Assembly: GCA_014885115.2 (NCBI GenBank)
Contig: WKLE02000557.1
Coordinates: forward strand, 55,917 to 119,916
Source of the DNA: Asterionellopsis glacialis
Lineage: Eukaryota > Bacillariophyta > Plagiogrammaphyceae > Rhaphoneidales > Asterionellopsidaceae
DNA length: 64,000 nucleotides
Direction: 5' to 3'
The notes beneath the pieces are model-generated. The model worked only from the letters and a program-made list of their open reading frames with translations. It did not search any database and was not told the origin of the DNA. A program made the translations under genes and the position numbers. Positions within the stretch are counted from its first letter, which is position 1. Every line of letters starts with the position of its first letter. This document shows, in pieces, positions 1 to 64,000 of the stretch.

Positions 1-698
1 CTTGAATATGAGACTACATTGTAAATTTATTTTTCGTTGAAGACGTCCCTTTACCGGAACCCCGCTGGGTCGACACATTACCAGGTACGTACTGCACGTT
101 GTCATCCCTTTATTTCCGGTCCTTTTGACGGGGAAGACAGAAAGGACCATAATATCGCACCAGATAAAGTATTGTTGTTCAATATATGATTACACGTAAT
201 CATTGTTAAATACCAATAATTTTAGTAGAGACTAATTATAAAATAGTTGAATAAATACTCATGCATACAAAAGTCGAGTTAATCAGAGAATAATAGTAGT
301 TTGAACTTGAAAGAATTCCACGTATGTTTATTACCAGCAGCTGCAGTATTTTTTGGTGATACTGTTCAGGTAAGTCTTTCATGCATACTGATAAATATTA
401 TTATCTGTTTGAAAAAAGTAGCGTTTTTAGGATTAAAAAATGCAAGACAAATATCATTTATTATAACGAAAAATTAATTAAAAAGGATGGTACGACGAGC
501 GACTGATTCAGCGCGATTTTAAGAAATTGCTATAGGTCCTACATCAGCCCGACACAAATACGAACCCACCCAAAAAAAAAGGAATCTAGCTAGACCTATC
601 GCAATTCATTCCTCTATTTGCAACATACGTTACAGCAAGGAGCAAAAAGTTTCAATCTTGAAATCGTCAAAGCATTCCTCAAAAGAAAATTAGCAACC
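1..698. other. Intergenic, no gene seen
   Basis: This AT-rich stretch lies upstream of the DHHC gene. No ORF with recognisable content is present on either strand. One copy of the dispersed TACCAGGTA motif lies near 79-87. An open frame from 618 has a TTG as its first codon, so the region up to 698 is treated as 5' UTR. Confidence 0.5.
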
Positions 699-6397: not shown

Positions 6398-6799
6398 ACT
6401 TTGTAACAAAACCCATGGACATTTTTTATTTTACTTCCTCTTGTTGCCTTTGGCACTATTTTTGTTTGGTTTGCCCCTTTAGTGACTTCTTATTATTATT
6501 TGAACTATTATACATCTTGGATGGTGCACCTTTTCATTGGAGGCATTTTTCACCGTAGACATGCACGTACCAGGTACTAGTAGTACAAATCAGCAGTAGA
6601 CTTTGTACCAGTTGCATAAACCTTGCTTATCCCTCCATGTTGCAACTATCGCGGGATGTCCAACACATGAGATTGATATTTCACAACCATCAGTGCCGAG
6701 CATTCAACAAAGGCACATTTGTACCGACCTTGGATCCATAAGTCTCTTTCACCTGAAAGAAATTATAGGAAAGTTAGACAATAACAGGCTTTCGACAAA
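6398..6799. other. Intergenic between CSN1 and small secreted-protein gene
   Basis: About 400 bp contain the CSN1 3' UTR and the probable promoter of the next gene. One TACCAGGTA copy lies at 6568. The open frame that runs to 6803 has no recognisable content and ends inside the next gene's start, so it is not called. Confidence 0.4.
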
Positions 6800-11006: not shown

Positions 11007-12557
11007 GGGAGCTCGGTTCGGGTTAGTCTCGGGATATATATCTTGTACACTCTCTGAACGGGTGAAAACATTTGCGGAAAAATTAAAAAAGAGAAAGCAG
11101 AGAACAAATACGTCAGTTGCGAATAGATTATATAAGTGCTTGAAGAAAATACTATAAGTACAATTGCCGTCATCATTTCGTCACAAGAAAACAGTAGCAC
11201 CGTTGTTTCGTGGCTTTCGTTCGATCCGCGCGATCCAAAAAGAATAATAATTGTCGTCATCGTTTCGTCACATGAAAACAGTGGCCTCGTTGTTTCGTGG
11301 CTTTCGTTCGGTACCACGAGCCATGCCTCATGGCGTCCACCGTTCGGAAGAAAATGCGGCGTCTTAAAACCACCAATATCTGCACCTTGCGTATAAATCC
11401 CTCTTATTCACTAAAACACTTCGTGCATGATCCATTTCAGAACTCACTTACAGAGAAGAATAGAGTTGCAACCAAGGTCGCAACTGCCAACGGCAAGAGC
11501 GTTCGTTCCTTTGATGATAGCAGCCGACAAAGTGCTATTTCGCTGTTGTTCGTTGTCGATTCCCGTTCAAGAGAGCTTCACGTACTTTTTCAATATGGAA
11601 CGCACGTACCAGGTACCTGGTAAATCCCTGCTGCATAGCCATTCCTTGACCAGTTCCTTCACCGTATGTAACCTTGTCTAGAAATCGACGTACCTGGTAC
11701 ATGTAAATGGTAATTTCGCCATATTGTGTACCTTACATACTTACTGGTACTCGCAACAACTTACCAGGACTTTGAGTAAAATCTACACAGATTCTCTGCT
11801 GACTGTACATCGTTATATATTACATTTTACAAGGGGCAAAGTATTTTAGAATTTCAATATATCATAAACTTATCCATTAAATAATAAAAGCTCCGTACCA
11901 TATTTCTGAGAATATGTTTTTGATTAGGTAAATCAAGGTCAAGTAGATATGCTGCTGACGCTGCTTTGCGAATAAGAGACGTCACAATCACATTCCTTCA
12001 CCTTATTCGCATTCTTGGTTGGACGGAAAAGAATTCTGATTTTATTTCAGGCCCGATGTGTCAGTTTCCTGGTAGGTCCTAGTTGGTATTTATTAGGTCC
12101 AGCATTAGTCTAGAGTACAGTACCAGGTACGTTGTACTTGTACCAAATACAAGTTCTGCACAAAATTAGGTCGAAGGCTTATCGAGAGCCCGTTGACGTG
12201 TCAAAACACTCCACATGCCCCCAAACGTGAACAGGACTACCAGGTAAACCAGGACCGCTACTTCGGAATATATCATGCATAGATAATGCATGGATTTAAA
12301 ATGAGTAGGGTTATCAGACGATAAATAACCAATACCCGGCCTATAAATTTGTTTAGTTCTTAGAAGGGTTTGTACACGACTTTCATCTTGATCTAGAAGT
12401 TTGTTTCTGCCTTCCGTGTGTGTCCCATTATAGAAATTTAGAGGCAGTCGAAAACCAACACTCTATAAGAGACACGAAGAAAAGTATAGTCGTTGGAAGA
12501 TAAGGAAGGCTGAGAGTTTACAATCAATAAGAAGCGAAATGCTTCGTTTCAGAATGC
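11007..12557. other. Intergenic region upstream of HSF gene
   Basis: About 1.55 kb contain the HSF promoter and the 3' flank of the oxygenase gene. It holds a direct repeat (11162-11310) and several copies of the palindromic GTACC(A/T)GGTAC motif: 11607-11622 as the complete inverted pair TACCAGGTACCTGGTA, about 11692, and 12121. Overlapping short ORFs on the plus strand show no recognisable content. Confidence 0.5.
11162..11310. repeat. Imperfect 62-bp direct repeat upstream of HSF gene
   Basis: Copies at about 11162-11223 and 11249-11310 share a start like ATTG(C/T)CGTCATC, a middle TTTCGTCACA, and an end GTTGTTTCGTGGCTTTCGTTCG. Their spacing is 87 bp. They lie about 160-300 bp upstream of the HSF start codon, so they may be a duplicated promoter block. 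A binding factor is not known. Confidence 0.7.
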
Positions 12558-20477: not shown

Positions 20478-21409
20478 CGATGGAATCGTGTGTTAACAAT
20501 CGTGTCGTATAAATTTACAATATCCTTCCTCTTCGCCAAGTGCGTTAGCTGATGGGATTCTTGGTGTTGAAGGGCCGGGTCCCTATTTTTTGTGTTCTGC
20601 GGAATGAGTGATGGAGACACAAAGCGGACGGTGATGGATCAATTCTGCGAGAAGAATCTTTTCAACAGTCGAGCAATATCTTCTTTGGTTTTTAGCGTTA
20701 TTCCTCTACAGTAGAACAGAAAGTAATATGAATCAAACTTTTTCATTGGCTCGTCTTGACTCTTGACACACAAAGCTGTTCCTACCGGTATGAATTTGCA
20801 TCAACTGCTNNNNNNNNTTCATAGAGATGTATCCCATGGAAATATTTAGTGTCTCGTGTATAGGAAGCATGTACCAATATATATGTTAAGTACATGGTCA
20901 TGTATACCTCTTATGATCATCTGACACCTACCTGGGGTACCTGTCTTCTTGCCCTCCTGCTTCCTGTGTACCGGTACCAGTGTATTAATAAGTACAATAC
21001 CTGGTAGGCGATCAGAACCATGTTGTTTTCGTTATTACGCACCGCCCCGAATTCGTTATGTACTGCAATCTTAGAAATCATTGATGACGTATTATGGCCA
21101 ATCAATAATGATGATATTATGATGACGTACAGGTTCCGGTTTCCAAGCACAAATACCAGGTACTTTGAACTTCAAGGACACATCGCTTTCATGGATTTCG
21201 AAAACCCGAACTGGACTACTGTACCAGGTATTACAGTGCCAAGTAGACCTATTCCAAATTCTTCCTCTGACTTCCGAGAAAGGGGATACTCTCAACTCGT
21301 TCCTGGTAGGCTGCACTACGAGACGCGACAGATTTCTCACATCTGTGAGAATATTCTTTTTCGTTGTAGGAGTATAGTCTTCGAGACTATTTTGTGTTGC
21401 TGGTGCATT
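20478..21409. other. Divergent intergenic region with assembly gap and TGACGT sites
   Basis: The region lies between the membrane-protein gene and alanine aminotransferase. N bases fill 20810-20817. TGACGT occurs near 21084 and 21122. GTACC-type motifs occur near 20940 and 20999, and at about 21154 and 21222. An in-frame ATG at 21020 would extend the aminotransferase, but it runs through these intergenic motifs and is not preferred. Confidence 0.5.
20810..20817. other. Assembly gap (8 N)
   Basis: Eight undetermined bases. Sequence across the gap, including possible 5' exons of the minus-strand neighbour, cannot be judged. Confidence 0.99.
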
Positions 21410-23383: not shown

Positions 23384-24687
23384 AGAGGTTGCATGAAAAT
23401 GTAGTACACATTTCTTTTGGTAGAGAGATAAAATTTTGACAAGTAAGTTTTGAACCAAGTTGAATTTTGATGGGTTATTGAAAGCATTGTAAAATCTATA
23501 CGCTTATAAATTAGTTTTTTAAAAAATCAAATATGTTTAGACATGCAAAATGACCGTGTTTTCCTTCGTCTGAAATACTATTTGGGTTATAAATACAGTT
23601 GCGTGTTAAAAAGTGAGGGAAAAATCTTCTCTGTCTGTATCTTGGTAATAAATCTAGATCTTCTGTACTTCCTTGATGGAGTAACTTCCAAGTTCTGTTT
23701 TCATCTTGCTACGACATGTAGCTGGCCAATGAAAGTAAAGGCTGTAGACAGTGGTCAATCTAGGACTTCGTCCTGGAATGCATGCTGTGTTGCTGTAGCT
23801 ATTTTCAAAATTTTGACTGCCAAGCACTCTAGTAGCAAGCATTTAATTTTTCAAGAATTCTGATGATGATTAGATATTCGTCTAGCTTGTTTTACTCCTG
23901 TCTCCTCTAGAGAATTATATGGCTCTAGAGAGTAGGACCTCTCTCTAGAGTCATAGACTAAAAAGTCCTCTTGATGTAGGACCTAGAGCTCTACTAGGAC
24001 CTTTGATCCTTGTCTAGTTTTCAGTAGCTAGCCTGCCTGCCTACTCTCACATTTCTCTCCTCTGAGGATATCTATCTGGACCTTAGATCTTAGAACCCTG
24101 GGAGGATCCTCCAGATGAGTTGGTTACATACAGTCAGTACATACCAGATACATACCAAGTACCTGGTACAGACAGAACTGACGGTGTACCTGGTATACAT
24201 CATTCAGTACATAAAGACAAAAATAGAGAAATGCCAGTTGCCATGTAATTTCGACGTCTTTCGTGACGTAACACTCACGTGGTTCATTATGATTGGTTCG
24301 AAATGTCTATGTTTCCTTGCAAGAATGGAAATGATGACGTTGAAATATCTCTCATTGGTCTGCCCGTCCTTCCGTAACAAGTACGGAAGTGAGTAAGTAA
24401 TGAATATAATATGAAAAGATGTACCAGGGTACCAAGATGTACAGTAGGACCTACACGAAGGCACATTTGATTTCCGGGTTTGTTTTGACATCGCTACTGC
24501 GTCACACCGTTTCACTGCCATTAATTCAAGAAGTTGGACGAGCGGGACTCCGTCATTCGCTTTCTCATTCGCAGTTCTTTCCTCATTGAAGACTCTTCCA
24601 AAACGCAAAAAAGCATCACCTTTTCTCAGCATACCACCTCGTTACCATTCTTTTTATATTTTGATCTAAGTAAACGAATAATCAAAG
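23384..24687. other. Intergenic, promoter of KDPG aldolase
   Basis: About 1.3 kb. At 23910-24010 there is a cluster of short palindromes built from CTCTAGAGAG and TAGGACCTAG. Palindromic GTACCTGGTAC-type motifs lie near 24158 and 24186. TGACGT occurs near 24263 and 24335, 350-430 bp upstream of the aldolase start. Short ORFs here have no recognisable content. Confidence 0.45.
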
Positions 24688-25449
24688 ATGGCTCTTCGTA
24701 TCGCTGCTTCTCGTTCCGCCATGCGGGCCACCACCGCTACCAGGGCTATGAGCACTGCCACTGCTGATTCCCTTGATCGCATGCACACAACTGAGAACTT
24801 CAACGCTGTCTTGAACAAGTTTGCTGAAATTCGTGCTTGCGCCGTGCTTCGTACGGCCACTTCGGAGGCATGCCCCAAGGCCATGCAAGCTGCTATTGAT
24901 GGTGGTTTCAAGATTGCTGAATTCACACTTACTACCCCTGATTGCCTTGACCATCTTGCTGACTTCCGTCAAAAATACGAGGGCGATGTTATGGTTGGAT
25001 GTGGTACTATCCTCTCCCCCCAAGATGCTGCCGATGCCATCGATGCTGGTGCTGAATTCATCATCACACCAGTGATGCTCCCTGATGTTATCCAATGGTG
25101 TGCTGAACGGAACATTGTCTGTGTTCCAGGATGTCAAACTCCCACCGAGATGGTGAATGCTTACCGTGCTGGTGCACCTCTCCAAAAACTTTTCCCTGGC
25201 GTCGCCGGTGGTCCCATGTGGGTCAAGGCTGTCAGTTCTGCATTGCCTTTCCTTTCCATCAATCCCACTTCCGGTGTTGACCTTGATAATGCTGATGACT
25301 ACCTCAAAATGGGTGCCGCTTCTGTTGGACTTGTTGCCCCACTCTTTGACCCAGAAGCCATCGCCAGAGGGGACTACGACCAAATTGCCAAGAACGCTGA
25401 AAAGGTCATGGCAAATGTCCGCCCTGTTGGACCATACGTTCGCAATTAA
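24688..25449 (+). CDS. eda: KDPG/KHG aldolase (2-dehydro-3-deoxyphosphogluconate aldolase), mitochondrial type
   Basis: This class I aldolase splits 2-keto-3-deoxy-6-phosphogluconate into pyruvate and glyceraldehyde 3-phosphate, the last step of the Entner-Doudoroff pathway. It has 253 aa in a single exon. Residues 1-28 form an Ala/Arg/Ser/Thr-rich presequence without acidic residues before Ala26-Asp27. The Schiff-base lysine is Lys167 (LQKLFPG), the catalytic acid is Glu78 (AEFTLTTP), and phosphate-binding GCGTI and PTSGV are present. The start is a strong ATG. Codon use is markedly regular and C-rich compared with neighbours (GCT/GCC, AAC, CTT), as expected for a highly expressed gene. The pathway has been described in the diatom Phaeodactylum with mitochondrial location, and this copy fits it. 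A long open frame on the opposite strand (25488-24682) is a shadow of the codon bias. Confidence 0.95.
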   Translation: MALRIAASRSAMRATTATRAMSTATADSLDRMHTTENFNAVLNKFAEIRACAVLRTATSEACPKAMQAAIDGGFKIAEFTLTTPDCLDHLADFRQKYEGDVMVGCGTILSPQDAADAIDAGAEFIITPVMLPDVIQWCAERNIVCVPGCQTPTEMVNAYRAGAPLQKLFPGVAGGPMWVKAVSSALPFLSINPTSGVDLDNADDYLKMGAASVGLVAPLFDPEAIARGDYDQIAKNAEKVMANVRPVGPYVRN

Positions 25450-37944: not shown

Positions 37945-38180
37945 TAGTGTTAACACTCCACACAAAAAGTGGTAAGTAATTAAAAAATATCATTTTTATT
38001 TTGACTGACTCAACCATGAAAGTTGTTACTCCCAACCAAGACAATAGTTGAAGCTACCCTCCGCCTCCTATCCCGCTCAAGATTCCAAGTACAGAAGAAC
38101 AGAAGCTAGCTAAAGCGCAGTACACCAAAGTTAGCCTGTTATCTAATTCCGGAGATCAAAACTCCAAAGAAAAGTATACT

Positions 38181-39146
38181 ATGGAGTTCCAGTACTTCAG
38201 TCATGGGTCCCCTAGAGAACTACTGGACTGGTTCAATAACCTTGACCAAGTGATTTGTGGTCAGCGTATCATGACCAGGCCCACGCACTACTCAATGGCC
38301 CATGCCCTACTACGCGGTGAAGGCCTGTGTGTATTCAATGCCGCAGCCACCCAACATGAAAATGAGATGGTGGAGCACTTCAAGTTGGTTGGTGATGACC
38401 TTAAGAAGCACTTCTTTCCACTTAAGGTGCTCATGAAGCAGAAATGCTACATGTGCCAGTTCCTCAGCAAGCCACACGAGCTAATGTCCAAAGAGTACCA
38501 AGCTGCTCTCCATACGCTCAATGGCTACTTAGAGAAATTCCCCGGAGCAGACAAAAAGTCTAAGCTTTCTAACAAAGAACTACTTGAGATCCTTGAGTTT
38601 GTAATTCCTGTCACCTGGAGTAAGGAAATGACATGCCAAGCATTCGACCCTCAGGACAAAGGCCTACCAGCATTTCTGGAATTTCTGGAACGTATGGAAG
38701 TCACAGATGACATAGGAGATCTGTCAGGCCCTAGGACTAAAGAAAAGCCAGCTCGCAAGGATAAAGCTAACAATCCAACTAACAGCCAGGATGGTAAAGA
38801 CCAGGAGGCACCTAAGGGCAAATGTAAGTACTGCAAAATTCATAAGAGCAGTTCTTATGATACCAGCAAATGCCATGCCCTAGACAAATACATTGATCAG
38901 CATCAGAAAAATGGCGAGAAACAAGAACAACCTAAGTACAAGTGTCCGCACTACATCAAGTACAATAAACAGGAATTGAACACCCTCACGGTTCAAGTCA
39001 AAGACTTATTGACTAAGGACTTGTCTAGTAAAAACAAGTGCAAATGCAATGATACTGGCAAGAAATCGGATGATACCAATAGTGATGTTGAACAATGCTA
39101 CAAATTCAACTTTGATACCTTAAGTATTGATAGCGATGAAGAATGA
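38181..39146 (+). CDS. Retrotransposon Gag-like protein
   Basis: An intact 321-codon frame starting at ATG, about 240 bp after the 5' LTR. The first 170 residues are a helical, capsid-like region. A zinc-knuckle-like segment follows (CKYCKIHKSSSYDTSKCH, near residues 214-232), then a basic, Lys/Asn-rich tail. The frame ends with an acidic SIDSDEE. Its position between LTR and pol, and these features, make it Gag; no named family was checked. Confidence 0.75.
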   Translation: MEFQYFSHGSPRELLDWFNNLDQVICGQRIMTRPTHYSMAHALLRGEGLCVFNAAATQHENEMVEHFKLVGDDLKKHFFPLKVLMKQKCYMCQFLSKPHELMSKEYQAALHTLNGYLEKFPGADKKSKLSNKELLEILEFVIPVTWSKEMTCQAFDPQDKGLPAFLEFLERMEVTDDIGDLSGPRTKEKPARKDKANNPTNSQDGKDQEAPKGKCKYCKIHKSSSYDTSKCHALDKYIDQHQKNGEKQEQPKYKCPHYIKYNKQELNTLTVQVKDLLTKDLSSKNKCKCNDTGKKSDDTNSDVEQCYKFNFDTLSIDSDEE

Positions 39147-39239
39147 GATAACACCCCCATAGCAACTAACGTAGAAAATCATTTATATAACTATTCTACA
39201 CCTAACTACCTGTCTTGCAATACCTTCAGAGACTTGCAT

Positions 39240-42200
39240 AGCCCAAGGAAAAAGCCCAAAACCAGGCATACTTGCCCAGTTATGGTCACACTAATGCTAG
39301 TACATAAAGGATGAAGGCAGAAAGCAAAGCCACTTAAAGTACTACTGGATTCAGGCACTTCACCCACTATAGTAAATAAGAAATTTACCAAAAAGCTTAA
39401 GTGTAAACCTGCACCCAAGATGCTTTGGAAAACTAAGGGCAGAAATTTTTCAACCAATCAAAAGGTCTGTGCAATATTCAAATTGCCCAAATTCAATGAC
39501 CGCAAGGCTATTGAATGGGAATGTCATGTTGATGAGACAAAAGGTCAACAATTGTACAATATGATAATCAGATGCAAGCTCCTAGAAGAACTAGGTATGA
39601 TACTTGACTATAAACAGTGCATAATGACTTGGGAGGACGCTGAAGTCCCAATGAAATTGACTGACTATGAGATCAAGGAATTGTACAGTATGCTACAGGA
39701 ACTCACTGAGCCTAAATAAGTATGTGAAGCCACTGATTGCATGAACAGGATACTGGCCGCCACGTACAACAAGGCTGACCTAGACAAAGTAACGAGATTG
39801 TGTTGGCATCTGCCTCCTAAGGACAGAAAGGCCTTAAACGCACTACTTAAGAAATACAAACCTTTGTGTGATGGTAGCCTGGGCATGTGGGATATGGACC
39901 CAGTGAGTATCAAAATTAAAGAAGGCTCTAAACAATACCACGGAAAAGCCTATCCGGTACCTCAAGTCTACAACCGACTACTCAGGGAAGAGGTAGACCG
40001 GCTAGTATGTATAGGAGTACTACAAAAAGTCAACAGGTCAGAATGGGCAGTGCCTAGCTTCCCACGACCTAAGAAAAAAGATACTATCAGGTTTATTTCT
40101 TACTTTAGGAAATTGAACAAGTGTATCATATGACATCTGTTCCCTATTCCACGTATTCAGGAATTACTTATGAAACTTGAAGGTTTCTCACATGCATCAT
40201 CTATAGACTTAAATATGGGATACTATCACATACGACTAGATGCAGATGCTAGAAAATATGTACATCGTCCTACCATGGGGCAAGTATGAATACTTACATC
40301 TACCCATGGGAGTTGCAAGTTCAGTGTACATTTTCCAAGAGAAGATGAGCAAACTTATGTGTGGACTAGAATTCGTACGCATGTACATCAATGATCTATT
40401 GCTCCTTACAACGGACAATTTCAAAGACCATCTATATAAAATGGACCTGGTACTACAAAGACTACAGGAAGCGGGACTTAAAGTCAACACAGAGAAATCC
40501 TTCTTTGGACGAACTGAAATGGACTATCTTGGATTCCACGTGTGTGTCACAAGGGCATAAGACCACTTAACCAGAAGGTCTCTGCCATACTAAATATAGT
40601 GCCCCCTACTACTCCTAAGAAAATACGATCTTTTGTAGGGATGGTTAGCTATTGCAAACAGATGTGGATACACAGATCCCACATACTGGCTCCTCTAACC
40701 TAGCTACAGGGCAAAGGGGTTAAGTTCAAATGGGGGAAAGAGCAACAAACAGCCTTTGACAATATTAAGAAAATTATAGCCAAAGAAGTACTACTGTCCT
40801 ACCCAGACTTCAACAAGCCTTTCCACATATATACCGATGCCAGTAAATATCAACTTGGGGCTGTTATCATACAAGATGACAAGCCTATAGTATTCTACAG
40901 TAGGAAACTTACTGACTCCCAAATTAAATATAACACTTGCGATCGAGAACTACTATCAATCGTAGAAGTACTTAGAGAGTATCAATATCTCCTAGTAGCT
41001 CAACATATCATTATACATACAGACCATAAGAATCTAACCTATGACAAATCCCAAACCAAATGCCACACATGATGGTGCGTGTTTGTAGAGGAATACGCAC
41101 CTGAACTATGCTATATAAAAGGCAAGAATAATATAGTTGTGGATGCACTCTCCTGCCTAGATTTAATCGATACTGACATTGAAGCTGTTCCCGAGTGCTG
41201 TATCACTGACAAAGATATGGCCAAAATGTACTGCCTAAATAAGCCCCAGCATAGCAATAGTGACAAGGGTTTCCCCCTCAGTTACCCAGACATCCTTAAA
41301 CATCAATTAAAAGACAATCAACTCAAACAAGATGCACTTAAGAAAAAGGGTTTCTCCAAATGCCTATTTCATGGGGGCGGAAAATCCTATAGCCTTAAAT
41401 GCTACAAAAATAAAATATGCGTTCTGTCAACTTTACAGAAATGAATGGTACAATGGTACCAGACGTACTTATGTCATCGCGGTAAGACCTGTACCAAAGA
41501 GACAATCCGGCAGCACTTATGGTGGCCTAAACTACGTGAACACATAACAACCTACTGCAAAACTTGTCACATCTGCCAACTGAACAAGAGTCAATGTAAA
41601 AAGTATGGACACCTGCCACCTGCCTGAAAAAGACACAGAAGCCACACCATGGGACCGCCTATGTGTAGATTTCATAGGACCCTATACTATCAAAAGAAAA
41701 GGTCATAAAGTTCTCACCCTACCCTGCGTTACTGTGATTGACCCAGCAACAGGATGGTTTGAGATTGCCCCTTGGTCTGAAAGGAGCAGTATCAAAATCA
41801 TGAACATATTGGAACAACAGTGGTTTGCATGATACCCAAAGCCTACGCAAGTTACTTTCGACCGAGGCACAGAATTCATGAAGGACTTCCGTAGTATGCT
41901 AGATGATGAATACCACTTCAAGCGTAAACCAATCACTACCCATAACCCACAAGCAATTGCTATTGTGGAGAGGATACATCAAGTAGTGGGTAATATGGTA
42001 CAAACCCACGAGGTACAACATAGTGCCAAAGAAAACCCTTGGGCTGGTGTGCTAGCTGCCGTTGCATACGCTGTAGCTATGCCTGGCCAGCTAGTTTTTG
42101 GTAGAGATATGATATTTAACATTCAACACAAAGCAAACTGGGAACACATACATAGTAGGAAACAAGCTAGGATTGCTAGCAACAACCAGTGTGAAAATGC

Positions 42201-42414
42201 TAAGAGAATCAAACACTATTACAAGATAGGCGGTGACAAAGCCCTATTAAAGAACGACTGGTCCAACTTCCGTAAATACAAACAACCTCACAATGGCCCT
42301 TTCACAGTATGTCAAGTGCACTGTAATGGTACTGTAATGCTACAAGGCAGACCAGTCCTTGACAAAATTAATATCCGTTGCGTAGAGCCCTACTACACTG
42401 CCACTGCTGCATAA
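39240..42414 (+). pseudogene. Broken pol of gypsy-type retrotransposon
   Basis: Fragments in successive frames encode, in order: an aspartic protease (active site LLDSGTS near 39345); reverse transcriptase (from about 39950; catalytic box reads YINDLL at about 40384, Asn in place of the first Asp); RNase H (IYTDASKYQLGAVI near 40829); and integrase with a zinc-binding region (CKTCHICQ near 41558) and the catalytic acids in VDFIGPY, FDRGTEF and VERIHQ. Reading frame breaks include in-frame stops near 39311, 39717, 40132, 40558, 40701, 41071, 41442, 41626 and 41830, and a frame change near 40255-40290. It is not functional as it stands. Confidence 0.9.
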
Positions 42415-51934: not shown

Positions 51935-54779
51935 AGTATTCTAGCTCTTGGAATAAATATGGTGTTGAAAAGTTTAATGATCTTGTGACTATCCTCAAAA
52001 GAGATAGACTATGTGAAGACCAGCATTGGAGAGATCCCACAGAAAAATTGATGAAGGAATTCAATAAGATTAGAGCTAGAAGAAAGAGGAAAAAGGATTG
52101 TGGTTTAACAAAAGTAAAAACTACTCCAAAATTGGTTTTGAGGATAGTGATGATGACGAGGATCATCATAAGGGTGATAAGATTGAAGATAGTACTGTGA
52201 TGACAAAGATGATGATGACAATAATGTAAGTGATATGAACCTGAGATGTGTTGAAGGAAAGATTTGGAATAGTAGAGAAACCACAGCATCCCTAGCAAGT
52301 AACATCTGATCAAGAAAAAGGACATTACAAACAAATACTGTATTTGTTCATTCCGATATTTGTTAAATATAAGTAAACAAATTATAATTAGGAAAACAAT
52401 TGTGTAAAAGGAATATATTTTAGCTACAGAACATGACTATTATGTAAGAATGTTTTAGTTGGCTGTAAGTAAAAAAATTGTATTTAGTAACTGAATTAAA
52501 AATACTTAGTACTTTCAATATAATATTTTTACTTAGTATGTGTAGGCATGAGGACACTTCCTCCCATGGTACCTATGTTTTAAATAATGAATGATAATAA
52601 AGCCCGCATTAATGGACTAACACCACATTCTTCAGAGGAAGAGTATGCAATGACTATTATGACTTAGAATTAGAGATACATGACACCAATACTCACAAAA
52701 CTTACAAAACATGACATAACATTACACACCACAAAACATCAAAGCAAACTTTAGCAGGTTGTGCTAGATATTTTTGCACCTTTCCCCAACAGTTTTTACT
52801 TATGTACTCTTTCCTAATGGCATGTCCCCCAGGAGCTCCTACTGGTTCATCCCAGCAGACTGTAGCAACAGAACCCAAAGCAGATCCTTGACATACTTAT
52901 CAAGAGTCTTAGCAGTAGATACTATACACATAAAATATTAGATTGCTTTGATTTAATAATAATGTGCCCATTCTTTTCCTTTCTGGCACTTCATCCTCAA
53001 AGTAGATGTTCTGGCCATGGCTGCAAGTCAAGCGTATTGGTTTACCTGGTTTATTGGCAGCAGGTTAAAAATAAATGTTTAGTTTTATTAAAAATTCCAT
53101 ACCACACTGATAAGCACCCAAGTAATATCACTTAAACAATTGAATTCTGAACAACTGATACTGCAGTACTCACTCATTACCAACATCTTAATAAATTCAT
53201 CATGACACCTAGTTCAACCATCTATCAAATAAGGTAATTTCCTGCACTATCCTGTGTTACATCAAGTTTTTTTAATAGCACAATTCAGGTAAAGGACTCG
53301 AGTAATTTATTTGAATACTAGTTGATGCTGCTTGGTTGTGCAAGAACTACTAGCAGTTTTCCCAGCTTCTTGTGTGTTATACTACTAAGTGCATGATGGG
53401 AGCAGACATGACTTGATGTCCTACTAGTCTAGTCCAAATATTAATTCTTAATATTATCATTGGCTATAATAGGATTGAACCAGTCATATATAGTATTATC
53501 TATTTGTGAGCAAGACCCAGCAGATGATGTGCTACAATTTCTTGGGGCTTAAAATTTCTCACGGAACTCTCCAATAACAAACTTAGCATTTTCAGACTCT
53601 CACAGCAACTTTCAAAGAAAGTTGATCTGCAATAAGGTTGGATTGGTTCTAGATGATGGGGAAACAAATTCACAATAGGGAAACTACATTGCCTCAAATT
53701 TTTCTTGCTGTTGGTTGTCTTTATGTGCTGTTGTGTGATCAAAACAATCACTGTGAAGACCAGGCAAGAAATTTGATTTGATTGGTTGTTATGGAATTTT
53801 GGGGTTTCATGAAAACAATAAGCTGTTGACATGGGGGTAATGAAAATGGCCCACCTCCCACCAAATACCAAATACCAAAAATACAAAAGAGGCACCGACC
53901 TCTGATTTCGTCTTGTCTTATCGGAATGTGGGAAAAACAAAATGACTTTGTTGACAGTGTAAAAAAAAGTATTTGACACAGACAGACAGACAATGGGTTG
54001 GATCCTGAATTCAATGAATCATGGATCCGAAATAAGAATGTTCCCGGATGGACGAGTCTCTACGTCATATACGAGGGTACCTGTTGGGCCTATCGTACGG
54101 AGCTACCGGTTTAATCTACAGGTACAGGTACTGTAGATGACCCAATAAGTTCCGGACACCTCTAGTAGAGGTATAATAGCGGTTAATAATTAAAAAAACT
54201 ACGAGTAGCTAGGATTTTTCAACGATTAAAAAATTAATACAGTGTATAAAAAATATACCCTTGTGATTTTTAAGCAGGCGGAAAAAGCTTCTGTGTATAC
54301 TGAGCCTTCTCCTACCTGGTACACAATTAGACATGTAGGACTATCTGTAGGACCCACAGGGGCGCTTACGACTACAAAGGGTGGTGCTGTCATCCCCGCC
54401 AACGCACACCTCCGAAATATATCTCTTGGTCCTAGCGCAGATTTTTCGAAAGAAGAAGATAGGCACTACGTCATGTATTACTACGTCATACAGGTCGATA
54501 AGTCTGAATAATTTGGAGTTCTTGAAAACAATACCTGGTAAGCCTTTTTGATGAATGCTGGTGATGGCTTTTCTGTCCGATCAATAAGAGTCTTAATTTA
54601 TTTTTTTATTTTTTATCTACAAATAAGAAGATGATTTTGTCAGAATACACCCACCAGTACCTCATATTTCACATACCAGTTAGAACTATCTGTACATATA
54701 TAATAGTTTTACCTATGTATCACTACATGTCGGTTGTCTTTCTTGTAATTGTACCAGCTAGAGCTAGGTCCTAGGGGTA

Positions 54780-55510
54780 CTGAAAGTAGCGTACCAGGTA
54801 AGGGTACCTGGTACCCGTACCAGGGAGTTACCGTACCGTAATGAATACCTGTTTTACAGCAACAGGTACTGTACCGGGTACCCATCGTATGAATATGAAA
54901 CAGGTACCTGGTACTGTACAAGCAGCAAGTACAGGTACAGTGCCTGTTACAGGTCCTGTCCCTGGTATGAACAAGGTACCTGGAGCAGTTACGTGCTGGT
55001 AACAGCAAAAAAACCTCTAACTGTTACCCGAGGTACCTTACGTGTACAATACCTTGTACAGGTACGTACCTCAACAGTCCGTAGGTACCTGATACAACTT
55101 ACCGAGGTATAAGTGATTCCTTCAGCATGTGCCAGGTGGTATGGTAGGACCAAGAGAATAGAAAAATTAAAAGAACATAATTCTTCTTTTTTAAGTCTCT
55201 TGACTGTATGTAGCACTGCTTAGGACTATCAATGGTACTGTACCAGGTACGGTACCTCGTTGCCCCAACAGGACCTGTTACGTCTTCAAAGGCATAAGTA
55301 ATTCGTGAGGAGTCGTACTTTATCCACTATTATTTTTAATGTACCATACAGATTTATCATCTGGTTCAAGCAAGAACTCATCTCTACTTTCTCTATGGTA
55401 ATACAAGGTTATAATAAGTACATACCTGAATAGTACCAGGTATACCAGGTACCTGGTAAGGTAGGAGGACACTAGTCCAAAAGGTCCCACTGTACCAGGT
55501 ACTGGTGGGA
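54780..55510. repeat. Array of GTACCAGGTAC/GTACCTGGTAC palindromic motifs
   Basis: Dozens of variants of TACCAGGTA and TACCTGGTA, many fused as GGTACC palindromes (for example near 54805, 54900, 54976, 55240 and 55449), with irregular spacing and mixed orientation. It lies upstream of the first paralogue gene. It is not a simple tandem repeat, since the units differ and spacing varies. Its nature is unknown. Confidence 0.75.
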
Positions 55511-55574
55511 CCTCTAGAGAATACATAATGTACCTGTACCACCGGTAAACATTGTTTGGGAAGAAATTAGAAAG

Positions 55575-55640
55575 CACCTCGAAAGAATCGACAAAATTAT
55601 TTTCAAATCACCTCGAAAGAATCGACAAAATTATTTTCAT
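55575..55640. repeat. 34-bp tandem duplication just upstream of a start codon
   Basis: CACCTCGAAAGAATCGACAA... followed by AATTATTTTCA occurs twice at a period of 34 bp (starts 55575 and 55609). The second copy ends about 35 bp before the ATG at 55673, so it lies in the 5' UTR or core promoter. Confidence 0.85.
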
Positions 55641-55672
55641 AAACTTCAGAACGAAGTCGCGACACATTTAAT

Positions 55673-58084
55673 ATGGAAGATTCCGGACATTCGAGACCAT
55701 CAGTCCCCTGTTTTGATGCTTCAGAAAAGACGCTCGAAGACACTCAAATATATCTATTTGATATTGGCACGTCTTTGAAAGTAGATGCAGATAATGCACC
55801 TTCGTTGAAACCTTCAGAAAAATCTTTTGCAATGCGAAAGTTACCTTCAAGTGCAAAGGGGAAGAATCTAAAAAGTGGGTGGAACGTCGATCTTGGTGGC
55901 TTTTCGACAGCACATGCATTATCTTCGTTGAGCAACTCGTTAAAGAAGGATACCACCAGGACCAAGAAGCAAACAGAAGGTCACCAGCCGCGTAACTCAC
56001 TTGGGGCCCTTCGAAGAGAATCTCTCAAGTCGTCTAAGAACAAGAAACGATCTGATTCGATACTTGAACCCGACACTCTGAAGAAAATGAAAGATGCTGT
56101 TGAATTATTTGACGATTTCGAATCATTGCTCGGAACGACCACCAGCGACGTTGACAACCTTGATGATGACTCTGAGAAGTCAACGTCGTCACAGAGGATA
56201 GGAAAAATTTCTGCAGCCCTTGAAATGGCATTGACGATATCAAAACGAAATTCAGTTATTAAGAGCATTAAAGACTTTTCTGAAAAATGCAATGATAGTG
56301 AAATTATGATTGCGTCTACAAACGGCGAAGCAAACAAGGATTTGCCAACTCAAATTAATTCATATCTTGATGAATACTCTACTGATGCTTTATTTCCACC
56401 ACAGGAACCAGACAACATAAGTATTGCATCTAAAACTTCAAAGCACTCAATTCAAGGAAAGAAATCCAACGAGGAGAAAAATTGTAATCTTTCACTGCAG
56501 CGAAGGTTTTCACAACTATCTGCATGTGATAATATTTCTGCTAAGAAAAAACCCCTTTTTTTCTTTGAAACAAAAAGAGCTGCAGCAGTCGACCAAAAAA
56601 TTACTTTGAGTATCATTTTCTTACGGACCTACGCGGTCGTTCTTAATGAAGGTGTTGAAGAGCTAGCGCGGGTAGAGGTCTTGGTGGATGGCGCAGCTCG
56701 AGCTAACCAAGCATTTTCACAATCCCTGAAAAGTACACTTGAAAAGAGCCTTGGCAAAGATAGTCATTCGCATGATGTTGGACAGGCGTCTTCACACTCA
56801 TACGCCTCGACTGTGTCAACATATTCATGCAAGTCCTTTCAAGACCCACTAGATTCTCTCTTCACATCACAAAGTTTGATAGCAGCACAATTTTCCGGCA
56901 ATGCTAACCACGCCCTTTCTAGCACTATCCAGGAGATCACTCATTTGCAAGAGGAAACGGAGGCCCGATCTAAGTATATAGAACAAATGGGCGACGCTCT
57001 TTTGAATGAATTTGAAGCTGTTGAAAAATATGTCCAGAAGTGTTGGCGTAAGTTACAGCTGAAACTTGTACTGCCTTTATCAACTTAAGAATCTGCGACT
57101 TCTTTGAATCTAGTCTAACTTTTTATATGTTTTCTCCTGTATTACTACAAATTAGAACTCTACAATGAAGCCGCTGTTTCAGCTTCATCAGACAACTCCC
57201 AACGATCGAAGTCTTTGTTGAACAGTAAGAAAAGTGATCTATGGCTGTTAGAAATGCGTTATCGTGTTGCTGTTAAATATCAAGCATCGCTATGGAATTC
57301 GATATCAGTTCGACTTTCAGAAATGTTGTTATCAGGCAGAGAAAAAGAATTAGAACGCCGTGTGAGACTGCAAGCCTTACTTCTTGACTTTGTATCGAAG
57401 CAGAAGCGTCTGATAGGAAGTTGCTCTTCAATGCACCCCGAGATTTTACAAGAGTTATTGGACCGCAGCGAGGAGGAAGAAATCGAGATTGATCTTAAAA
57501 ATACCCTTCAAAGTCATTTAGAACCCTTCGAGCGTTGGGAAAAGAAATCTTTGTTGGACATGTCACAAAGTCTTGCCGAGAGTGAAGAACAAGTACTTTG
57601 TGACCTAGATATCTTGGAGTGCCCTCTTGCTAGCGAACTTGTAACAGCATGCAAAATTGTGGAACGAAAAACCCAGAACTCTCTCGTGAACTACAGTTGG
57701 CAAAAGATGATGGCTGTAACTACAGCACATTGTAGCTTTCATGTTTTTGAGGTGCCCGACGTTGTTGGGAGAAATGTAGATGTTGTAGATGCCTTTCTTT
57801 CGCTATTGCCAGATCCATGGATTCCACATTCAATTGACCAGAAGCTGGAAAATATCAACACCATAGACGAAAGGCTTGATATATCTCCATCGGAGACATT
57901 CTTTCTCCCCAAATGTGATATTTCGAAAGAACGTTCAGGACAGATCAAAATTACCGAGCAGCGTGTTGTGCATAGTAGCACTAGGAACTTCTTTCCGAAA
58001 AAAGATGCCCGGGAAATTGTGTTGCGTTCACTGACGAGTGATCGTGACAAAGGCAACGAGTGGTGTGAAGACTTTGGGTTCTGA
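55673..58084 (+). CDS. Hypothetical helical protein, paralogue A of an inverted pair
   Basis: No family is recognised. Two exons, 55673-57047 and 57156-58084, with a 108-nt phase-1 intron (GTAAGT...AAATTAG), give 767 aa. The first 290 residues are Ser/Lys/Asp-rich and look disordered. A conserved block follows (PLFFFETKRAAAVDQKITLS, then FLRTYAVVLNEGVEEL), a linker with SCKSFQDPL, and a long helical region that spans the splice site and includes DLWLLEMRY and LQALLLDFVSKQKRL. The C-terminus has SPSETFFLP. The helical layout around a lipid-friendly basic face resembles F-BAR-type membrane-shaping proteins, but I can show no signature, so function stays open. The intron position is identical in paralogue B. 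Confidence 0.75.
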
Positions 58085-58762
58085 TGCGTCTCACAAGATA
58101 TCCCTTATGATGCAGTGAGCATCTCATACTAAAGCTAACGTAATAGGCAATTGTATAAAACGAGTACATATTTCGGGACACCTCGAGCCACATTACCGCA
58201 CTTCCATTCTCTGGATTGGTGAATTAAGTATATCTTCCTTGTCCTTGTCCTTGTCCTTGTCCTTGTCCTTGTCCTTGTCCTTGTCCTTGTCCTTGTCCTT
58301 GTCCTTGTCCTTGTCCTTGTGTTTCAAGTCTAGGATTAGTTGTCTCTCACAAGTCGTAGGTAAAGTGCATTTCCATTTCATTCATCTCGGGAGCTTAGTC
58401 TGAACTTTGTGCCCTTTTTCACGAATAATGTATCTATTAGATGTTACAGTACCGTACAAGGACATTTCATGATGTGTGATCTACCTCACGGGTAAGACGT
58501 AGGTTCTAAAGACGTCGAGCAAGGGCCTTTCTAATCCATCACCGATTACAGATTGAGAGGGATGATTGAAAACTACAGTAAATTGAAGGTCACAACCGCG
58601 TTTTTAAGCTTCTACAACTTCCTGGTAATCTTTAGTCAAGCAGACAAAGAAAAACATACTTTTCTAGTCAAGCACAGTATAAACATATCATATTCCTTTC
58701 ATCTTAAATTCATTTCTACAATCTTACTTTAGCTCTTATATATCATTGGTATGAGTTGCGCT
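58085..58762. other. Tail-to-tail spacer of the paralogue pair
   Basis: About 680 bp between the two stop codons, holding a hexanucleotide microsatellite (58237-58320). An open frame reading Lys-Asp repeats on the minus strand comes from that microsatellite and is not called. Confidence 0.6.
58237..58320. repeat. (CCTTGT)14 microsatellite
   Basis: Fourteen uninterrupted copies of the hexamer CCTTGT, 84 bp. The perfection suggests it is young and length-variable. Confidence 0.97.
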
Positions 58763-61306
58763 TCATTGTACAAGAACTTTACTTTGGACCTCATTTTCAC
58801 GACCGGCGCAATCGCCACAGAAAACAGTATCACGAAAGCTTCGCCACTCATCTCTATTATGGAAATAATCCGCTCGTATTTCAACCTCTTGTTTGTTACT
58901 CTTTTGAAAAAAATTCCTAGCACTGCGTGGAAGTGCTTGGTTGGCTTCTTGGTGCTCTTCATTTATCTTCAGTATTCCAGACATACGACATTCGTGCTCA
59001 ATGCTTACATTGCAGTCGGAAAGGAAGAAGCTTTCTGTTGGTGTGATTCGAAGCGAGACGTCTGCATTTTTGGCATTCGGCTTCACTTCTCCTGCTAATG
59101 ATGGAAGTTGTGCCTCTGGTAGGAGTTCAAGGAACGTAGATTGGAGATCTGTATCCTTATCGACAGATTGGGGAACTGCAAAAAGGTGGAAGAATTTATC
59201 CTCAGTATGTACAGCCATCATTGTCTGCCACTTGGTACCACCCAAGGCACCTCGAACTTTTCGATCTACAAATGCACACGCCGTGACCAGCTTGCTTGAA
59301 AGAGGACATTCTAGCGTTTCTAAACTGGCAAAAGCTTCCTTTTCCTGTTGAAGGAGACCCAATGAGAAATCCACTAAACACTCACTCTCCCAACGTTGAA
59401 AACGATCAACGTGTGATTTGAGCGTATTGGTGATATCAATCTCAACTTCTTGATCGTTACGGTCCAACAATTCTTGAAGAATCTGAGGATGCGTTGAAGA
59501 ACAGGCTGGCATTAGTCGTTTCTGTTTGGACACGAAGTCAAGCAGTAGCGCTTGTAGCCTCCCACGGCGTTCCTGTTCTCCCTGTCTACCCGCCAGGAGA
59601 ATCTTTGAAAGCTCAGCTGCAATTTTCCGCCAGAGGGATTCTTGGTAAGCAACAGCAACATGATAACGCATCTCCAGCAACCATAGATCATTATTGGATA
59701 GATCCTTCGACTGATTTAATGAAAAATCGGACTCATCTCTAGTACTTCGTTGTGTAGACGATGCTGCAACAGCTGCTCCATTGTAAAGTTCTGCAATAGG
59801 TGGACAAAAGGAAAAATCCAAAAATTAGATATCATTCCACGGTGTGGTGCCAATTATGTCAAAGCCAAAATGAATTGTATTAACGAACTTACGCCATGCT
59901 TTTTTTACATCTTCTTCGATTGATTCGAGTTTGCTCATGAGAGCATCCCCGATATCTTCAATATATTGAAACCGATCTTTTGCTTCCTTTCTTAACTTGG
60001 AGAGCTCTTGCAGACTACTGGATAATGCATGGTTTGCATTATCAGAGAAATGGTCCGCAATCATACTCTGAGAGTCAAAGAGAGATGCTAACGGATCTTG
60101 AAAAGACTTGCACGAAAGTGTTGATACAGTTGAACCGTACGAACGAGATGACACATCACCACCTTCAATTCCAGGGCTTTGATAGCCCAACGTATTCTCA
60201 AGTACAGATTTCATAGCACTTGAATAAGCAAGATTTGCACGGGCCGTCCCCTCGACCAAGGATTCTACACGCTCAACCTCTTCAGCTCCTTCGTGGAGGA
60301 CAACTGCGTAGGCTCGCAAGAAAATTACCGAGAGAGTAATTTTTCGATCAACCGATGCACTGCGATTCGCCTCGAAGAAGAACAATGGAGTTTTCTCAGG
60401 ATCAGAACCAAAGGATGACGAGTGGGTTCTTTTAAAACGTATTTTGCCGTTATCCTCTTGGTTGCGCCCTGATGTCATCAGGACATCATTACCGGATTCT
60501 GCATCGTCAAGCTGCAGAGAAAGTTCACTCATTTCCATGGTGTTGTTTGATCTTCTGGTTTCAAGGTCCACCCAAGGTTCCTCTTCCTGCGGAACAATCG
60601 GTTTTGATTCGCCGCTGTCATGAAAGCTTGTACTTTCGTCACACTCGTCTACATCTTCATCACATGCTTCAGCCATCAGGTTGCGTCTTGATATTTTCAT
60701 AGCAATTTCCAAGGTTGGTGGGATATCTTGTTGTTGATTTTTCGGAATTTCGGATTTTTCGGAGATATCTGATACCGAGCATTCACCATGATCGTTAACA
60801 TGTAAAAGTTGTTCAAATTGATCGAACATGTCTACTGTGTCCTTCATTTTCTTGATCGTATCTTTTTTCTTCCTTCTTGTTTTTGAGGATTCGTCATTTA
60901 TTGACTTCTCTGAATCTTTTCCTTGCGACGACATTTTTTTAAGATTCTGCATCGACTTGGTTCTCCGAGGTAGAGCCGATCTCTTCTTTTTTGAAGAACG
61001 TTTCTTAGTGTTGTGCTCTTCAAAGTTTGTGTTTGTGGGGAGAGCGGACGTATGAGCAGCTGAAAAACTACCACTGACATCGAGTTCCCACGCTGAATGG
61101 CATTTTTTCATGACGCCCCTTCTTCGAGACTCCGACGAGGGCAATGCTATTGCGGATGAGAGCAATGCCGATTTGTTGTCTTCATCCATTTGCCAAGTAC
61201 TGTGGACACTTCTACGACGAGTGCCGGTACTAAGATTAGATTTGCCTGGGATGTTCGCCTTATCGATCAAGGATATGGTAGATGATCCGTTTTTAGAATT
61301 CATCAT
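58763..61306 (-). CDS. Hypothetical helical protein, paralogue B of an inverted pair
   Basis: No family is recognised. Exons are 61306-59893 and 59790-58763, joined in phase 1 over a 102-nt intron (GTAAGT...ATTGCAG) to give 813 aa. It matches paralogue A along most of its length: PLFFFEANRSASVDRKITLS, SCKSFQDPL, DLWLLEMRY, LQALLLDFVSKQKRL and SFFLSDCNVS. After the splice site both read QLYN(E/G)AAV. The N-terminal 190 residues are Ser/Lys-rich and diverge from A, apart from short islands (for example AWELDVSGSFSAAH against NVDLGGFSTAH). The shared intron position shows descent from one two-exon gene. Start is an ATG at 61306, directly followed by a second Met. Confidence 0.75.
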
Positions 61307-64000
61307 ACTGCTTTAAGAGAGTGCAATGCTGGGAACCAGTGAATACTACTAGCGTATAAAATAACAGAAGTAGTGCAAGGGTGGTTCTTCTTTGATTCCG
61401 ATTCTATTATTTTCTGTCCAAAATGATTTCGAATTCGAAAAAATAAAGAATAGAAAAAATTGTGCCACATACATTTTACCTGGTACGTTATTAGTGCATT
61501 TGTACTCTACCTGGTATGATGCGGTGTAAAAGTCATCTTTTAGTCGCCACAAATAAATAATGGTCACGTCCGTGGGTGGAGATGTAAAAAAATAGATATT
61601 TCACAGTTTGGATCGATTAAAAAAAGTTTCCATCCCTATTTCCGTACCAGGTATGACATATACTGTGCCTGGTCCCTTACAGGTACATCGAAAAATTCAA
61701 ATATATGTTGATTACATCATACCCAATAAAAAATCTATTTCTAATAAACAAAACCAAAGAATCATGATTATGAATACGTGACCACGACCAACTCAGATTT
61801 GTCCAAGAGGTTTTTTACTAATTCAATATTATAATATATCATGGATATTATTATACCCAGATACACTTTTCTAATTTGGAGAGTATAATACGTGTATGGA
61901 AAACATTCTTCAAGGAAGAGGTTCTATCCCTCATAGTGTAAGGTGGTGACGTGTGGCCTAATCTTCGGATGTTCGCAGGGCAAAAAGACACAGAGAGAAT
62001 AAAGATAAGAAATAAGTTTCTAGATTCATTTACTCTGATGAAGGAATGGATTTTTCAAACTTTCGGACAGATGAAGTTGTCTATCCGAATACTTACAGAC
62101 GTAAAGCTGTTTTTTCCTCGTCTTTATTACAGTATAAGCAATAGTGGATTCACATTTTCAAAACAGTCGTGCTTTTCTCGAAGAATTATGCCCTAATACC
62201 GTGTACTGTACTGTACGTGGTACCAGGTATATGGTGCAACGGGTTTTTGAGAGAAATTTGTGTGAAAAAAAATGTGAAATACTTCTTCACATCTGGTACT
62301 GACCGTACCAAGGTACCTGGTACCATACCAGGTAACTGTGTACCTGTACCTGTACCCGGTACCGGTACCAGGTACTAGGTCAGATTACCCCTGGTACTGG
62401 TACCACAGGTACCAGGGTACAGGTACATGTACCAGTTACGCCAAGATGGATACCAGGTAGGACCCTACCAGGTAAGGTACCAGGTACCCGGGACATACCA
62501 GGTACCAGGTACATCTTACCAGGTACCACGTACAGTACATGGTAGGTCACATCTACAGCATCTCAAGTAGGAACATAAACGGTAGTAACTCTAAGTTGCA
62601 CACAAGAGAGTTGTATTAATTAGGTACAGAGGTAACAGGTACCAGGGTACAAGGTACCATATTTTCGTTATACCAGCATGTAGATCATCCATCTTGTACA
62701 TATTAGAAGTTTGTTCGTAGAGTCCTCCTTTTTATTAGGTCCTAGATATGTACGGTAGCTCCATACGAATCTCACGTTCCCGCGGGATCGAAGTCAGAAA
62801 GCAATTTCGTGGAATTTTTTTGACAAGCTTTTAATAATTGTGCCCCTCCAGAAAACAAATCCTAAATCATCTATGCCCCTTCCACCTCGATGATTCAACA
62901 AGACATTTCACAGAAAGACACCGCTTTCGAATAGTGTCAGGTACATCTCTTCCCTCGTTTCTCGGACTAACACAACCAAATATGCCTCTCCAAAATGGTT
63001 CAACCAGGGGGAATTGAGACATTTCATAGAAAATAGGAGTAATAATTATAATAATATCTTCTATCAATGATCACCATAACAGACCAAGGCACCGGTTTCT
63101 GGAAGTCTACCTTTCCCTCACTGCCTATAGGTAGACTAGACCAATAACTTTTATATTATATACATGAGCCCCGCAGCAGATGCGTGTTTGCCATCCCCGT
63201 TCCCCGAGCACAACTGAAAGATGGAAACTTTGGAGGTCCTCTCTCTAGAGAGTCCCACCTCTCACATTGGGAAAAAAAAATTTATGAAAAGATACCAACT
63301 AGGACCTAGAGGTTCCAGATCTAAATAAGGTGCGTTGGTGGGTCAGAAGCAGATCAAGTTTGCGTTCTTGCTGGTACATGAATTATGAAAATACTAGAGT
63401 TTCGGACTCTGCACCAAAAACTTGTCCTACTTTCAAAGTCATGATTCATGAGACTTTCGATAGCACAGTCGAAGTGAAGATAGAGTGATACACGACGGAA
63501 GTAGACCACAAATTTCAAATTCCTTACGTAGCAATCAGAGAAGAGAATCGGAAAACAAGTTTCTATATAGGTAACTTCAACATGAAGACATCGATGCATC
63601 ACTCATTATCCACCATGGTTTGGGAACCAGAGAAAGAAAATATGCAGTGTATGGTGGGACACGGTGGTTCAAGAATTTGTGATCTTTTCATACCAGATAC
63701 ACAGCACATTGAACGGAGTCTGAAGCACACTTAAAAATGACAAACAACCAGAGTGCTTGATATTCATCTTCACCCGGGAAACGACAAGATTTGCTAGTAC
63801 TATGGTAAGTGGAGAACTTCCTGTAACCCCTGAACAGCCAGTGGCTCGCTCTGATAGGAGCCATCCATGCAGTCAACAACACACGTAGCAACAAGAGTTG
63901 TGGCGACAACTTCCTTGGGCAAATTCTTGTAAATACCCGATGTGGGTAATGTCGATAAATTTTTTAAAAATCGATCTGCCGAACGATGTTCGACCCATTC
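61307..64000. other. Intergenic region to the window end
   Basis: About 2.7 kb with no supported gene. Single GTACC-type motifs lie at about 61478, 61509 and 61645, then a dense array (62200-62660). CTCTCTAGAGAG and TAGGACCTAG palindromes lie near 63235-63310, as also seen at 23.9 kb. Any gene that starts past 64000 cannot be seen. Confidence 0.45.
62200..62660. repeat. Second array of GTACCAGGTAC-type palindromes
   Basis: About 460 bp in which TACCAGGTA, TACCTGGTA and GGTACC recur almost continuously; at least ten GGTACC hexamers are visible, against about 0.1 expected by chance in this length. Some units are fused (for example GGTACCTGGTACC near 62314, GGTACCGGTACC near 62359). Located upstream of paralogue B, about 0.9-1.35 kb from its start. 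Confidence 0.8.

Follow-up and report, generated by a model that had tools for sequence, protein, structure and literature searches.

The locus and its palindromic words

The DNA analysed here, referred to as the window, comprises the final 64 kb of a 119,916-bp contig of the diatom Asterionellopsis glacialis, whose assembly amounts to 40.3 Mb in 1,503 contigs. The window carries the short palindrome TACCWGGTA (W being A or T) and its 11-mer form GTACCWGGTAC, both singly and in dense stretches. The sites and the genes next to them are as follows:

79..87, plus strand: single site near the window edge
6568..6576, plus strand: single site in an interval scored convergent
11607..12246: 5 sites upstream of a gene for an HSF-type transcription factor (9738-11078, minus strand)
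20998..21230: 3 sites in the divergent interval between a gene at 17697-20255 (minus strand) and an aminotransferase gene scored from 21449 (plus strand)
24160..24195: 2 sites upstream of a KDPG-aldolase gene (24685-25449, plus strand)
54313..55501: cluster of 10 exact sites and many near-words, upstream of gene A
55676..58084, plus strand: gene A, two exons, without Pfam match, paralogue of gene B; start codon at about 55676
58763..61303, minus strand: gene B, tail-to-tail paralogue of gene A, without Pfam match
61477..61653: 3 exact sites ahead of gene B, at a distance of 0.2-0.35 kb
62200..62660: densest array, with many near-words and 10 exact sites (62221-62525); distance upstream to gene B about 0.9-1.35 kb

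All singly placed sites named in a preliminary description of this DNA were recovered within 2 bases, and the two dense stretches that it reported hold 8 exact sites (54792-55501) and 10 exact sites (62221-62525), together with many near-words. Its observation that neighbouring units fuse at GGTACC also held, as fusion corresponds to a 7-bp offset and 8 such pairs, with mixed centre bases, were found in the 243-kb sample defined below. The spacing of the units is irregular, as had been claimed, which together with the mixed centre bases argues against an ordinary tandem satellite. Nested inverted words (23 nt, 96%) lie within the array at 62200..62660. The block at 25-54 kb had been described as free of the motif, and there are indeed no sites between 24,195 and 54,313, an interval that contains ordinary genes as well as repeats. 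Open frames at 38058-42414 resemble, by eye, the gag and integrase pieces of a retroelement.

At the amino-acid level, genes A and B are 39% and 49% identical across the two exons, and they are the only two close members found in the genome, with a third, weak match on another contig (C807; 25%, E 5.7e-5). Their coding DNA can be aligned over 958 nt at 64%, while upstream of the two genes no stretch of more than 30 nt could be matched. Within 1.5 kb upstream, gene A has 10 sites and gene B 13, more than any other of the 60 scored genes; because these arrays were the reason for choosing the window, the comparison is post hoc. One search for a second copy of the region 54200-57200 returned only the region itself. 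Between the two genes, at 58236-58320, lies a TCCTTG hexanucleotide repeat of about 14 copies. Regarding the other genes, the KDPG aldolase has at least 120 protein matches of 76-93% identity; those that carry a species name come from diatoms, and the best of the matches listed, at 93%, are transcriptome proteins. A search for rbcL gave no match. Elsewhere in the assembly, on contig C1375, we noted a divergent silicon-transporter gene with about 50% identity to its best hits.

Abundance, exactness and position relative to genes

The window contains 35 exact TACCWGGTA words, compared to a mean of 0.39 and a maximum of 2 in 100 dinucleotide-preserving shuffles. The preliminary description had proposed a count over the whole assembly, and with the same pattern read backwards as control the motif lies far above expectation: 8,772 copies of the 9-mer versus 598 (about 15-fold) and 2,982 copies of GTACCWGGTAC versus 33 (about 90-fold). 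The word GTACNNNGTAC occurs 4,553 times versus 1,005 in the reversed control, and in 2,982 of these 4,553 cases the gap is filled by CWG. For closer analysis a 243-kb sample was assembled from the window, contigs L002-L022 and a piece of L001 trimmed at its overlap with L002; much of it is drawn from contigs known to carry sites. Against an order-3 Markov model, 102 copies of the 9-mer were found in this sample where 3.3 are expected, and 49 of the 11-mer where 0.26 are expected; training the model on noncoding DNA alone gave expectations of 3.1 and 0.29, respectively. The centre is W in 102 sites and S in 4. The joint of fused units, GGTACC, shows no enrichment of its own over the genome (10,674 versus 11,515 in the reversed control), which led us to reject it as the unit, and in the sample it exceeds the Markov expectation just 1.5-fold (103 versus 69). 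The motif is thus a real and strong feature of this genome, and the original observation is confirmed.

The element is sharply bounded. Among the 102 aligned sites the outer G and C carry 0.66 and 0.81 bits, positions further out at most 0.22 bits, and the flanks outside the 11 bp have no common sequence. We found 63 single-mismatch words of the 11-mer, 39 of them altered at the two outer positions; some inner variants do exist, since the expectation for the remaining 24 is about 4. For the 9-mer, point variants stay close to background (86 versus 63 expected), whereas words that keep both ends and lose one inner base are clearly enriched, namely TACAGGTA (57 versus 11.6) and TACCGGTA (20 versus 2.7). 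One-base insertions of the 9-mer number 36 versus 13.9 expected. The enrichment of inner-base-loss variants next to near-background point variants indicates that half-sites and their spacing matter, and that no large cloud of decayed copies surrounds the motif. Binding sites of transcription factors tend to be degenerate; an exact 11-mer in 90-fold excess is more than such a site usually shows, which counts against a factor site.

Sites are strongly clustered. Forty neighbour pairs lie less than 100 bp apart, versus a mean of 7.0 and a maximum of 13 in 200 draws of random noncoding placement, and the surroundings of exact sites, out to 100 bp, hold 131 copies of the half-site GGTAC (22.8 expected).

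Gene models were derived from our own hexamer-based coding scorer, whose start codons are approximate and which marked 43-44% of the sample as coding. None of the 102 sites in the 243-kb sample, and none of 126 in an enlarged 290-kb sample (44% coding), fell inside predicted coding segments. The preliminary description had noticed none in coding exons; this stands for the scored segments, which contain none of the 35 window sites, but less firmly for those at 21154 and 21222. These two lie inside an open frame (21008-23383), ahead of the part that was scored (from 21449), and an early start of that gene could make them coding. Coding DNA is therefore at background for this motif, and active purging is not proven, because an even spread would place only about 1.4 of the 3.3 chance words there. 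When four 10-kb stretches were chosen solely by contig number, they held 12, 5, 5 and 0 sites, and again none of these 22 was coding.

Regarding the orientation of neighbouring genes, an upstream-versus-downstream comparison had been suggested, and it clearly favours 5' ends. Of the 126 sites, 106 have a 5' end as the closest gene boundary within 2 kb, 14 have a 3' end and 6 have none, at a background of 57% 5'; counted by clusters the figures are 38, 6 and 4 (P about 3e-5 against that background). Stricter gene scores gave 105:13 and 99:15 for sites and 37:5 and 33:7 for clusters (P 6.8e-5 and 0.0016). Control words in the same nearest-boundary test had no 5' bias (TATAAA 0.53-0.56, CCAAT 0.51-0.55), while the spacer variants shared it (TACCGGTA 16:3, TACAGGTA 44:14). 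Tandem intervals hold 23 sites in the half adjoining the downstream start and 6 in the other (17:6 with better-scored genes). Counted back from the predicted coding start, density is greatest at 250-1,250 bp, where it is higher than in the first 250 bp; downstream it is low to 500 bp, yet rises to 1.55 per kb between 750 and 1,000 bp. Depletion of clusters in convergent intervals was not significant in any of three tests (2 versus 5.4, P 0.064; 2 versus 4.0, P 0.20; 3 versus 5.0, P 0.22), with a lean in the same direction as the 5' bias. The single site at 6568..6576 marks one of the 2 convergent intervals with a site and counts against a promoter role.

At least one site lies within 1.5 kb upstream of 26 of the 60 well-scored genes, in a sample enriched for sites. 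Genes with and without sites were compared by Pfam on 7, 10, 10 and 8 chosen gene pieces. Site-free pieces included an E1 ubiquitin enzyme, RPN7, a DEAD_2 helicase, TFIIE alpha, OGG and a kinesin, as well as MgtE, DAGAT and an ankyrin/2OG protein, and several pieces had no Pfam match; as the pieces are too few, we claim no functional split between the gene sets.

Two further palindromes look like separate elements. TAGGWCCTA occurs 1,986 times in the genome versus 299 in the reversed control and is noncoding in 22 of 22 sample sites, without clear 5' bias (14:8, falling to 9:9 with stricter genes); TAGGACTA, one base shorter, was found 31 times versus 4.2 expected. The palindrome CTCTAGAG(AG) was found 25 times in the sample versus 2.5 expected and is noncoding in 24 of 25 cases, likewise without clear 5' bias (14:13, then 11:12 with stricter genes). 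The pattern of the fused-unit word was also seen outside the diatom, in 1 stretch of viral contigs and at least 117 stretches of prokaryote contigs. One such word, GTACCWGGTACCWGGTAC, is repeated across contigs of single bacterial assemblies (e.g. Acidimicrobiia, a Chitinophaga bin), a recurrence that is probably unrelated to the diatom element.

Folding, mobility and other explanations

Cruciform or foldback DNA had been suggested as a role, in which case structure would be the function and sequence identity secondary. The two window arrays do fold, as single strands, much more strongly than dinucleotide shuffles (z -10.8 and -6.8; a neighbouring control stretch gave 0.13), and 15 clusters mostly folded better than block shuffles, which 16 control stretches did not. 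Block shuffles cut the motif words, however, and against 60 shuffles that keep them whole the mean z of the 15 clusters was -0.7, with 11 unremarkable. Two clusters stood out clearly, the 62.2-kb array (z -3.5) and one on contig L008 (z -4.4), neither equalled by any of the 60 shuffles, and clusters on L148 (z -1.9) and L004 (z -1.8) were borderline (2 of 60 each). Foldback is thus mostly a by-product of the palindromic words, and these shuffles lend it no support as a general role. By reasoning, moreover, a lone 11-mer could form a stem of at most 4 bp, and a need for structure alone would accept other arms, whereas a W centre is flanked by TACC arms in 102 cases, the next arm reaching 22. 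As an account of the element, foldback is therefore very improbable.

The other suggested role, a self-spreading mini-repeat, would have the 11-mer copy itself, alone or within a small element, into open promoter chromatin. Copies in the thousands (2,982 11-mers), local arrays with fused units and a 25-nt perfect inverted repeat that brackets the 4-site cluster at L008:9630-9949 speak for this. A decaying family, however, should leave many point-mutated copies, and those of the 9-mer hardly exceed expectation; the flanks outside the 11 bp are unshared, and the repeat block of the window is empty of copies. Non-motif inverted repeats of at least 12 nt accompany 3 of 29 clusters, compared to 15 of 300 random points, and the bracketing 25-nt repeat accompanies 1 of 29. 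On the unshared flanks, this single bracketing repeat and the scarcity of 9-mer variants (86 versus 63) we rejected a MITE or similar mobile mini-element; the inner variants of the 11-mer (24 versus about 4) count against that rejection. The suggestion thus found poor support, and we regard self-spreading as very unlikely, if a little less so than a foldback role. Near-exactness, very high copy number and a CCWGG core, CCWGG being a symmetric CHG site, would suit a genome-wide palindromic signal tied to methylation, repair or replication and not to transcription. The model for such a signal is HIP1 of cyanobacteria, a very abundant exact short palindrome that also lies within coding sequence. 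The diatom element differs in its complete absence from predicted coding segments (0 of 126 sites), and its 5'-end bias and strong clustering also argue against a signal of this type, which ranks below foldback in probability. Lowest of all we place a transcribed element that acts in RNA, through 5' leader processing or splicing. Its location on the 5' side of genes would fit, and half the motif reads CAGGTA, which resembles an exon/intron junction; density 250-1,250 bp upstream nevertheless exceeds that of the first 250 bp.

A putative dimeric factor site and its relatives

That the palindrome is exact, with sharp edges at 11 bp, and that its sites are noncoding, biased towards 5' ends and clustered, lends good support, at the level of sequence, to the remaining suggestion of the preliminary description, binding sites of a sequence-specific factor. 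We consider GTACCWGGTAC to be a promoter-proximal cis-regulatory element, most likely the site of a homodimeric transcription factor with homotypic clusters (probability about 0.78). A homodimeric, possibly oligomerising, factor would read TACC/GGTA half-sites in inverted orientation, separated by one A/T base, and the same putative factor may tolerate, more weakly, half-sites without a spacer (TACCGGTA) or with one of them shortened (TACAGGTA). Lone sites would serve many genes, and the dense stretches would be homotypic clusters of strong and weak sites with additive or cooperative binding. We infer protein binding, the dimeric state and control of transcription, as well as selection acting on the sites. 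A search of the genome for SBP and CP2 DNA-binding domains gave no match, and control genomes were equally silent. HSF domains matched 64 times, but because their half-site differs, HSFs are a loose lead only as candidate factor family.

A bolder variant, which we think unlikely although ahead of the mini-repeat, holds that a single lineage-wide global regulator reads a near-invariant 11-bp palindrome across thousands of promoters, with fast turnover of arrays and with selection or palindrome-templated conversion rewriting the copies. Paralogous promoters would then share site count without alignable sequence because arrays grow and turn over fast, and near-perfect copies would dominate because a site-directed process keeps rewriting them.

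The proposed homodimeric factor site belongs to a known kind, the promoter palindrome with homotypic clusters. In such clusters a single site recurs upstream of a gene at irregular spacing, in strong and weak copies; the exactness and genome-wide excess of the diatom element are above what is usual for them. GTACCWGGTAC itself is new to the literature searched, among the matches listed: searches by word and for diatom and stramenopile promoter motifs returned no title or beginning of an abstract that names it. The occurrences behind the hits of the searches by word may be primers.

Among the matches listed, the closest published elements are two Phytophthora motifs, TACATGTA and TACCGGTA. In three species of Phytophthora, 12,070 genes carry motif-1/M93, TACATGTA, upstream (PMC3520976). 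Like the diatom element it is an inverted repeat in stramenopile promoters, associated with thousands of genes, and its factor is described as not established, a homodimer being proposed (PMC3520976, PMC3597505). The diatom core differs from it, has a 1-bp spacer and forms dense arrays, and TACATGTA itself is found 9 times in the diatom sample (5.5 expected). Phytophthora M94, given as TACCGGTA (PMC3597505), has the TACC/GGTA half-sites in common with our element, and this very word is enriched and 5'-biased in the diatom; M94 lacks the spacer base, whereas the W-spaced form dominates in the diatom. A shared core with either Phytophthora motif was rejected, as the main diatom form is W-spaced and TACCGGTA minor (20 versus 102 sites). 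Gap variation appears possible within one factor family, since Phytophthora HSF proteins are reported to bind TTC/GAA half-sites with 0-, 1- or 2-nt gaps (PMC11267843). A palindromic promoter motif for which a dimeric factor has been proposed is also described for a diatom, the low-iron motif ACACGTGC of Thalassiosira oceanica (PMC3491386); its ACGTG core, its location near -200 and its 45 gene models set it apart from the present element.

In our judgement the cis-regulatory grammar of diatoms is poorly charted. The 90-fold excess and the thousands of copies make this element a ready handle, and a DNA pull-down could name a global regulator; the element could also serve in promoter building. 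Its likeness to Phytophthora TACCGGTA raises the question of a common stramenopile promoter syntax, and genes A and B may show site clusters that persisted upstream of paralogues after the remaining promoter had diverged.
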